A stretch of DNA of 35,662 bases from Victivallales bacterium (GTDB taxonomy: Bacteria > Verrucomicrobiota > Lentisphaeria > Victivallales > GWF2-38-69): NCBI GenBank assembly GCA_021733985.1, contig JAIPJT010000027.1, forward strand, positions 1 through 35,662, written 5' to 3'. This document shows, one piece after another, positions 10,279 to 13,436 of this stretch. Both the position numbers and the translations under genes were made by a program. Each line of letters starts with the position of its first letter. The first letter of the stretch is position 1. The notes under the pieces are model-generated. The model saw only the letters and a list, made by a program, of their open reading frames with translations. It was not told the origin of the DNA and did no database searches.

Positions 10279-10662
10279 CTATTCGAAATCATCCAAAAGG
10301 CTGTACTCTTTAGGTGTCAGAAGCAGTTCGAGTTCATCTACATCATCATATTCCATTTCAAACAGCCAACCATCTTCATAACATGACAAATGTAGCGGTT
10401 TTGTATCATGTCTTAGAATATTATTTATTTTGGTCACCCGGCCGGTAAGTGGAGCATATATTTCCTGTACTCCACCGGGATAGTGAAGAATTCCGCATTC
10501 TATTTCCATTTCAAGCTCGTCATTTCTCCTTGGGAACTCTACTTCATCTATAGCTCCGAGAATATTTAAAAGTTCTTCAGTAACTCCTACAACGGCTGTA
10601 TCCTCTTCTATTTTTAACCACAAGTGATATTTAGTATATAGCAAATCTTCAGGAAATAACAT
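10279..10662 (-). CDS. GcvH-fold protein lacking the lipoyl lysine
   Basis: This 127-residue protein has the glycine-cleavage H protein fold. The YTKYHLWL start matches YT..HEWl, then VGVTEELLNILG matches VGIT..A...LG, and IYAPLTGRVTKIN matches iyaP.sG.v.evN, followed by GWLFEM. The usual ESVK segment that carries the lipoylated lysine is replaced by ECGILHYPGGVQE, longer by about five residues and without lysine, so it cannot be lipoylated at the normal place. I choose the ATG at 10662 because GAGG lies just upstream; GTG at 10668 is the alternative. No other glycine-cleavage gene is near. It lies 138 bp downstream of the pseudokinase-EAL gene on the same strand and may share its transcript. 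Its function is unknown; a regulatory or scaffold role is inference. Confidence 0.75.
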   Translation of the reverse strand: MLFPEDLLYTKYHLWLKIEEDTAVVGVTEELLNILGAIDEVEFPRRNDELEMEIECGILHYPGGVQEIYAPLTGRVTKINNILRHDTKPLHLSCYEDGWLFEMEYDDVDELELLLTPKEYSLLDDFE

Positions 10663-10807
10663 TCTCACCTCTTTTTTTTGTCTTTATAATTAGATGAAAC
10701 AAAGTTTGAAGCCTTTTCAACAAACAATTAAATCATGCATTGATTAGGATATTATAAGTTAGCTGTAAGGATTTCAAATCCCAAAAAGACAAAACAAATA
10801 AATTATT

Positions 10808-12604
10808 TCACTTTTTCTTTTGCTTTAAAAGTAGTTCTGTAATTTCATTTTCGGTTTTGGGTGCATAAAAATAATACCCCTGGGCGAGTGAACAGCCAAT
10901 TTTTGAAAGAAAATTAACCTGTTTTCTGTTTTCAACTTTTTCCGCTATTGTCGGTACTGAAAGAAAGTTTCCGAAAGCTATAATACTGTCAAAAGCTTCC
11001 TGCTGTTTCATCGCTTTTTTAATATCTTTTATGTAACTCTCATTAATTTTCAAAGAATGCAAGCGCAAACTCGAATGTTCTTTTTTTATAGACTGAAACT
11101 TGTTTGTTAAATCAGCCAGAGAAATTCTCGTATTAAAAAATTTTGCAAAATCAGCATATCTACTTTTTGATAAACTTACTTCAGGTGATGAAGAGAGCTC
11201 GGATATCTCAAATACAAGCTGTTTGTAATCTATATTATATTTATCAATAATCTTTAAAAAAGTATCTTCAAAACCTTTATCCCTTAACTGTGAAGGCGAA
11301 ATATTTATAGTAATATAAATATCATTTATCCCTAACCTTGTCCACTTTGCAATTTGAGCACATGCAGAGTCCAGAGCCCATATACCAAGTTCATTTATTA
11401 AATCTTCCTTTTCAGCCTGGGGTATAAAATTTGCAGGTGGAATCTTGCCAAGAGGTGAAAACCATCTTAGATACGCTTCAACTCCAACTATTTTGTTGTA
11501 TTTTAATTCCACAATAGGCTGATAATGCAATGTTAACTCTTTTTTCTTTATTGCATTTTTCAAACTAGGATTCCCCATGTCAATTACAGCTTTCTCTGTC
11601 CGCGATTTAATATTATTATATATTTTCATTTTTTTTTGTTTTTCCAGTGTTGCTTCGATAAAATTCAACCTTGCTATAAATTTAGCCGCAGTAGGACGCC
11701 GGACAGGATATGGTTCAAGCATTGATTCAATTAATTCTGCATATTCAGGGGCAATATCATTTCTTATGAGATCTATACTTACCGGCTGTTTATAAGGTAT
11801 TTGTTTTTTCTCAGTACTATCTCCATTGGGTCTTCTGATTCTTGTATATATTATCTGGTCATCAGTATCACCTTCAAATGGATATTTCCCTGTTAATATA
11901 TAATAAAGCATGACCCCAAGACTAAAAATATCACCTTTGTTCTCCTCTTTATTCTTTTCAGCCTTTTCGGGACTGATATAGTATTTAAGTTCCGGAAAAG
12001 AAGTTTTTATTTTTGTCTTATGTAAATAAGTAACTCTGCTTATAAGAAGATTTTGTATTTTAACTTTTCCTTCATTGTCAATTATGATATTATCCGGGCA
12101 TATATTGTGATGAACAAAGCCTTTATTATGCAGATAATTCAAAATGCTTCCAATAGTTTTAAAAGCACCGAAGACACTTTCTGCCTCAAACTCCCCTAAC
12201 TCGTTTGGATTGTAATCGGAAAATTTAAAATATTCAAAATCCGGTTCTGTAGTGTAAAATGTATTTTCCAGCTCCCCATAATCCAGAATTGGAGGAATAC
12301 CGGAATGTTGGAGAATATGAAAAATATCACTTGTTTCATTTTTACAGTATCCTAGACAATCACGAAAACCGGAAAATTTTTTCTTAAGAACTGTAAGAAT
12401 TATATTTTTTTTACTTTTTGAATCATACCCCTTATATTTGTAAAAAAAATCATGCTCTTCAAGCACTTCGGTAAGCTGAAAGTGTCCATAAATCATAGGA
12501 ACAATGAGTTCTGTATTGCATTTTCTGCATTTTATTCTGGTAAACGGCTGCAGTTTTTCAAAGTTATTAACTGTATTACAATTAGGGCAAATTCCCGAAA
12601 CCAT
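10808..12604 (-). CDS. Zinc-ribbon, pseudokinase and degenerate EAL fusion protein
   Basis: This is a 598-residue cytoplasmic multidomain protein. A zinc ribbon has C6, C9, C26 and C29. A Ser/Thr-kinase-like domain (about 40-315) keeps the fold signatures SPE (211-213), GDIFSLGV (224-231) and RRPTA. It lacks the glycine loop, the VAIK lysine (ILTVL instead), the HRD aspartate and catalytic lysine (HHNICPDN, 165-172) and the DFG aspartate (KIQN). An EAL domain (about 347-597) keeps E376, N434, E555 and QGY, but the DDFG metal site is degraded to LADLT and KID is KIN. Both enzymes are therefore probably inactive, and the protein may sense or scaffold, perhaps through c-di-GMP. AGGAG precedes the start. 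Confidence 0.85.
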   Translation of the reverse strand: MVSGICPNCNTVNNFEKLQPFTRIKCRKCNTELIVPMIYGHFQLTEVLEEHDFFYKYKGYDSKSKKNIILTVLKKKFSGFRDCLGYCKNETSDIFHILQHSGIPPILDYGELENTFYTTEPDFEYFKFSDYNPNELGEFEAESVFGAFKTIGSILNYLHNKGFVHHNICPDNIIIDNEGKVKIQNLLISRVTYLHKTKIKTSFPELKYYISPEKAEKNKEENKGDIFSLGVMLYYILTGKYPFEGDTDDQIIYTRIRRPNGDSTEKKQIPYKQPVSIDLIRNDIAPEYAELIESMLEPYPVRRPTAAKFIARLNFIEATLEKQKKMKIYNNIKSRTEKAVIDMGNPSLKNAIKKKELTLHYQPIVELKYNKIVGVEAYLRWFSPLGKIPPANFIPQAEKEDLINELGIWALDSACAQIAKWTRLGINDIYITINISPSQLRDKGFEDTFLKIIDKYNIDYKQLVFEISELSSSPEVSLSKSRYADFAKFFNTRISLADLTNKFQSIKKEHSSLRLHSLKINESYIKDIKKAMKQQEAFDSIIAFGNFLSVPTIAEKVENRKQVNFLSKIGCSLAQGYYFYAPKTENEITELLLKQKKK

Positions 12605-12758: not shown

Positions 12759-13436
12759 ATGCAATTCACTGTATATTTAAAAAATAAAAAATTTGGCCCG
12801 GTCAATCGCTCCGTTTTGGCAAAATGGGTCAAAGAGGGTAGAGTACTTCCAAATACTAAAATAAACAACATCTCAGAAGGACGCATTTACAGAGTACGGG
12901 ATTTAAATTTTCTGGAAGATGCTTTTGACTGGCAGGCGAAAAGTTTTGAGTCGCCACTGGCCGGGAATCCCGACCTCTCAGAAAATTTAGCTGAAGATTT
13001 TCAAAATAACGGCGAAGATTTTACTCGAAGATGTACTAAAACTGTTCCCGCTCCTTTTTATATTAGACTCGAAGCAGCATTTTTTGATGTATTAATACTC
13101 ATATCAGTGAATTTACTTATCGCAATTGCAGTTTTGTCTCAACAACTGAATAATTCCGATATATTTCCCTATATTACAATTCCAATAATTTTTTTTACTG
13201 TAATAATTTACTATACTTTCTGCCTAAACTTTTTTAAATGCACATTAGGTATGAGAATCTTAGGATTAAAGTTAATTTCATTTAGAGAAACGGCCCGAGA
13301 AAAAAAAATATTCAGGGTGTATATATATACGATGATTATGATTGTCTGCTTTTTTCTGAATTTAATAACTGTTGTTTTATTAAATACAAGGTGGCTCTGC
13401 CAGGATATCATTACCGGTATGACAGTTTGTAAATAG
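12759..13436 (+). CDS. GYF-like plus RDD-domain membrane protein
   Basis: This 225-residue protein has two parts. Residues about 1-55 (FTVYLKNKKFGPVNRSVLAKWVKEGRVLPNT) look like a GYF_2/DUF4339-type domain, a small soluble module usually placed before membrane proteins. After an acidic linker, residues about 98-225 form an RDD domain with about three transmembrane helices, with RLEAAFFD opening the first, CTLGMRILGLKLI in the middle loop, and QDIITGM at the end. RDD proteins are poorly defined; some are implicated in sodium or proton transport. It is divergent from the pseudokinase-EAL gene across a 154-bp shared regulatory space. The Shine-Dalgarno sequence is weak. Confidence 0.8.
   Translation: MQFTVYLKNKKFGPVNRSVLAKWVKEGRVLPNTKINNISEGRIYRVRDLNFLEDAFDWQAKSFESPLAGNPDLSENLAEDFQNNGEDFTRRCTKTVPAPFYIRLEAAFFDVLILISVNLLIAIAVLSQQLNNSDIFPYITIPIIFFTVIIYYTFCLNFFKCTLGMRILGLKLISFRETAREKKIFRVYIYTMIMIVCFFLNLITVVLLNTRWLCQDIITGMTVCK

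Follow-up and report, generated by a model that had tools for sequence, protein, structure and literature searches.

The window, the whole 35,662-nucleotide stretch of DNA that was analysed, carries an open reading frame of 598 amino acids (positions 10808–12604, reverse strand) that joins a putative zinc ribbon, a pseudokinase and a degenerate EAL domain in one protein. The first-pass annotation had described such a fusion here, and the open reading frame, its coordinates and its three modules were all borne out. Its framing as a single odd protein, however, misses a conserved family of stand-alone pseudokinases to which the kinase half belongs. We suggest that a duplicated pseudokinase with an acquired, non-hydrolysing EAL domain may form a candidate c-di-GMP receptor that modulates the contacts of the pseudokinase, a reading based on residue patterns that we favor tentatively.

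The 598-codon frame is uninterrupted, and all positions given below for this protein are on the reverse strand. The putative zinc ribbon, an N-terminal CxxC...CxxC motif, lies at residues 6–29 (12518–12589); its four cysteines are invariant in 17/17 members of the pseudokinase family and in the canonical kinases of the class, and a Pfam search of the window protein itself returned no zinc-ribbon match. The pseudokinase domain extends over about residues 39–318 (11651–12490), and residues 136–310 matched Pfam Pkinase with an E value of 3.4e-24 and 86.1 bits against a gathering score of 31.7, as expected of a Hanks-type protein kinase fold. It is followed by a linker (residues 319–344; 11573–11650) that is predicted, with low confidence, to be helical, and the fusion point is located about where the stand-alone paralogue terminates. 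The EAL domain occupies residues 348–582 (10859–11563) and matched Pfam EAL with an E value of 1.2e-52 and 179.1 bits against a gathering score of 31.3, so that both domain assignments are far beyond chance. Sequence matches in the PDB agreed, with PknA, PknB and Aurora chains for the kinase half and EAL phosphodiesterases for the other half, and the family profile of the pseudokinases matched the kinase 4eqm at 5.3e-29 and also PknB chains. The EAL part of the structural model, which is partly confident, matched the EAL domain of BifA in Foldseek at 5.1e-22, and the EAL domains of BifA, MucR and FimX were all matched at probability 1. AlphaFold2 models of the kinase half were of low confidence, with a mean pLDDT of 34.5 from the single sequence and 52.9 from a 3-row alignment.

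Residues of the kinase half were called from an alignment that combined 17 members of the family with six canonical zinc-ribbon kinases of the class. The VAIK lysine, the HRD aspartate and the DFG aspartate, which the first-pass annotation had reported missing and an active Hanks-type kinase would carry, are indeed replaced: T71 (12392–12394) stands at the VAIK lysine, N167 (12104–12106) at the HRD aspartate, and N185-L186-L187 (12044–12052) in place of DFG. The HRD motif, which is HHD in the kinases of the class, reads HHN in the window protein. In addition, C169 replaces the catalytic-loop lysine, and the glycine loop is missing, all P-loop glycines being gone. The alphaC glutamate, the catalytic asparagine, APE, the aF aspartate and the aI arginine are retained. 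From these residues, the kinase half is probably non-catalytic.

To define the family, we required a score of at least 232 bits with the family profile A1, the four zinc cysteines and the lack of the VAIK lysine. The profile gave 18 matches in 14 of the 198 genomes of the class, and a gap separates the family, at 232 bits or more, from other kinases, at 186 bits or less; no further member was found outside the order in a 388-genome sample of the phylum. The weakest match, at 232 bits, is partial (in genome G015) and was left out of the residue counts, which cover the 17 inspected members. The window protein scored 426 bits, though it is itself a row of A1. Family members are mostly stand-alone proteins of ~370 amino acids, and the window member is the sole one with a frame longer than 415 amino acids. 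Both the VAIK lysine and the catalytic-loop lysine (HRDxK) are gone in 17/17 members, and the DFG aspartate is kept in only three; at the HRD aspartate, nine members keep the residue and eight have asparagine. The zinc cysteines, APE, the aF aspartate and the aI arginine are present in all 17. Loss of the catalytic positions while the structural ones are fixed indicates a long-standing pseudokinase lineage and not a recent accident.

In the tree, the pseudokinases form one clade apart from the canonical zinc-ribbon kinases (100/100). The window copy is sister to a stand-alone copy that the same genome carries on contig 34 (G000:C34), with 100/100 support, and with 98/96 in a second tree, so one genome offers a natural pair of a fused and a stand-alone pseudokinase. 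Profile searches found no pseudokinase in G001 and G002, which represent two other genera of the same taxonomic family. The C-terminus of the family has a conserved TKTRAIPxM-like tail (around T342 and P346 of L039:5797-6852, the first sequence of A1), which is a possible docking motif; in the window copy, other sequence stands in for most of it at the fusion point. More widely, the 18 matches in 14 genomes make up a conserved bacterial pseudokinase family for which no described function was found.

The EAL domain was claimed to have lost both the DDFG acidic pair and the KID aspartate. We found that only the first aspartate of the pair is lost; the equivalent reads L-A497-D498-L, with A497-D498 at 11111–11116 and the second aspartate retained as D498. 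The loss of the KID aspartate stood, as the motif reads K519-I-N521 (N521 at 11042–11044), and this KxD aspartate is presumably the equivalent of Asp183 of PA3825. In PA3825, the first aspartate of the pair binds metal M1, and the second aspartate and Asp183 bind M2 (PMC5301497). Replacement by A497 and N521 would thus remove one ligand from each of M1 and M2, a broken metal site as in degenerate-EAL receptors of the LapD/FimX type. Within the residue set of active EAL phosphodiesterases (E, N, E, DD, KxD, E), A497 and N521 are the replacements and the rest are present. Overall, 11/15 tabulated signature positions are kept (Q362, E376, R380, N434, E466, E469, D498, K519, E555, E558 and Q575), and the four changed are the first aspartate, the KxD aspartate, and the phenylalanine and glycine of DDFG. 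These replacements suggest that the EAL half can no longer hydrolyse c-di-GMP. Loop 6 is altered from DDFGTG to ADLTNK and the glycine of IAEGVE is replaced by lysine (IAEKVE), changes that could spoil the c-di-GMP pocket.

With the correction for D498, the proposed double loss of kinase and phosphodiesterase residues in one chain holds, and the fusion is as unusual as had been supposed: it is unique among the 198 class genomes and the 388-genome phylum sample, and the window copy is the only EAL-bearing pseudokinase among the family matches. EAL domains are themselves rare, occurring in 6/198 class genomes and 12/388 genomes of the phylum sample, and the other EAL frames examined contained no kinase domain detectable by the profile of family and canonical kinases. 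Contigs from other bacterial phyla were covered by short patterns only, which returned two EAL-only relatives, and a kinase-EAL fusion could exist elsewhere; viral scans gave no match. On a Sphingobium plasmid, tblastn had suggested a fusion of kinase and EAL, but the region holds three separate genes, for GGDEF-EAL, LysM-TPR and HAMP kinase proteins, in tight succession (L140:694-4744). A limited search of the open-access literature found neither this domain combination nor the pseudokinase family described, and no paper on a pseudokinase, an EAL domain and c-di-GMP together. Each half is nevertheless of a known kind, as pseudokinases and degenerate EAL receptors.

The EAL domain of the window grouped with an EAL protein of its own genome (C23) and one of G001 (C49) with 98/97 support; this kinship to GGDEF-EAL proteins from within the taxonomic family points to a native origin. 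KIN and an E-D pair are likewise found in the closest EAL domain of G001, so the decay may in part be older than the fusion. In the genome of the window, two further EAL proteins (L041 and L043) have DNFG for DDFG, and additional EAL decay is therefore likely. Both halves of the window protein have long end branches, 1.37 for the kinase and 1.32 for the EAL domain.

Under the proposed mechanism, a lineage-specific, non-catalytic zinc-ribbon pseudokinase would have been duplicated in this lineage; one copy would have remained stand-alone (G000:C34), and the other would have gained, from the GGDEF-EAL proteins of its taxonomic family, a C-terminal EAL domain with a broken metal site. The EAL domain, with much of its pocket kept, would bind c-di-GMP without hydrolysis, and binding may change the docking of the pseudokinase to a partner protein; either of the two zinc-ribbon kinases that are intact in this genome is a possible candidate. 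This reading draws on the analogy to LapD (PMC3032553) and FimX (PMC7148300) and on the retained pocket residues. The genome has 15 GGDEF, six EAL and three MshEN matches, and no PilZ match in the profile search. Its two intact kinases, C16 and C38, both have an N-terminal zinc-ribbon-like motif, and C38 (L142:3957-4961) lies in a cluster of pilus or type II secretion genes, together with two ATPases that bear MshEN. This setting makes a c-di-GMP link plausible; the MshEN proteins are also other possible c-di-GMP receptors, which counts against the receptor reading, as do the occurrence in one genome and the long branches, such as relaxed constraint would also give. The more specific version, in which c-di-GMP sensed by the dead EAL domain would switch a dead zinc-ribbon kinase, which in turn regulates an active kinase of the genome, is unlikely. 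If it were true, second-messenger and Ser/Thr-kinase signalling would be linked via two pseudoenzymes in one chain, and c-di-GMP binding by the EAL domain would in itself connect c-di-GMP directly to kinase-type signalling.

The changes in loop 6 and in IAEGVE also fit a protein whose EAL half has lost c-di-GMP binding and acts in protein contacts, the whole being a c-di-GMP-independent scaffold. One such contact module is RflP (YdiV) of E. coli, itself a degenerate EAL protein. A study of protein-protein interaction networks included RflP and other degenerate EAL proteins (PMC5635695). A structural-only module should, however, need fewer than the 11/15 signature positions that are kept, which include the EAL-motif glutamate and the ExLxR arginine, and we regard this alternative as somewhat unlikely, although it ranks first among the rivals. 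Next comes a recent fusion that is being lost, joined without a dedicated function and under relaxed constraint, as the single genome, the long branches of both halves and the lack of a pseudokinase in G001 and G002 would suggest; given the intact frame and the retention of zinc cysteines, of structural positions in the kinase and of most EAL residues, we consider it rather unlikely. Residual catalysis, by an EAL domain with a rearranged metal site or a kinase with a noncanonical mechanism, ranks lower still and appears improbable: some kinases without canonical residues are active, and the EAL-motif glutamate, the asparagine, both glutamates, D498 and E555 persist, but each metal site is short of one ligand and the kinase has lost four catalytic positions at once. 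An assembly artefact joining two genes, conceivable in a draft genome of 71 contigs with a fusion seen once, can practically be dismissed, as the halves are in frame within a 35.7-kb contig and each has its nearest relatives within the genome or the taxonomic family.

We also compared the genes around the fusion. A GcvH-like gene is located downstream across a 139-bp gap (10279–10668, reverse strand), and its product, as the first-pass annotation had stated, lacks the lipoyl lysine; there is no lysine at the motif, and it scored 77.9 bits against the NCBIfam gcvH cut-off of 115.85. Orthologues in G001 and G002 are 45–46% identical and have no pseudokinase beside them, so a GcvH operon was rejected as a conserved link. 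This paralogue without the lipoyl lysine (window; L113:9511-9894; L114:8828-9214) is conserved in all three genera examined from the taxonomic family, and each of them also encodes a canonical GcvH at another place in the genome. On the other side, across 154 bp of intergenic DNA, a divergent membrane protein (12759–13436, forward strand) had been read as GYF/RDD; the RDD family was recovered (2.5e-08), while no GYF domain was reported at E<=1. A recurrence of these neighbours in related genomes, which had been raised as a check, was not seen, and the neighbours of the pseudokinases differ between families. At five f3 loci (L011, L054–L057), a stand-alone pseudokinase has as its neighbour a gene for a Kdo/WaaP-type lipopolysaccharide kinase; in two f7 genomes, G021 and G008 (L062, L063), the pseudokinase is downstream of gcvPA-gcvPB, and in G009 it is beside an adenylate/guanylate cyclase gene. 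At the G008 locus, gcvH is located upstream.

Several known systems resemble parts of the window protein. EssB/YukC provides a bacterial non-catalytic kinase fold that acts as a structural part (PMC9600267); it is a component of type VII secretion, and its likeness to the window pseudokinase may be one of analogy. The zinc-ribbon Hanks-type kinases of the class (C38 and C16 of the genome itself; L025 and L028) share the N-terminal CxxC...CxxC motif and the kinase fold, but they keep the VAIK lysine, the HRD aspartate and the DFG aspartate (C38 reads YRD and DYG) and fall in a separate clade (100/100). RflP is likewise a degenerate EAL protein without a GGDEF partner, but it is a stand-alone EAL domain, whereas that of the window protein is joined to a zinc ribbon and a pseudokinase. 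LapD has a degenerate EAL domain that binds c-di-GMP without catalysis (PMC3032553), and the window protein shares with LapD and FimX an EAL fold whose catalytic metal site is broken, which makes it a candidate non-hydrolysing receptor (PMC3032553, PMC7148300). Unlike these two, it has no GGDEF, HAMP or membrane part, and its N-terminal partner is a pseudokinase; it also keeps the EAL-motif glutamate where LapD reads KVL, and its c-di-GMP binding is putative.
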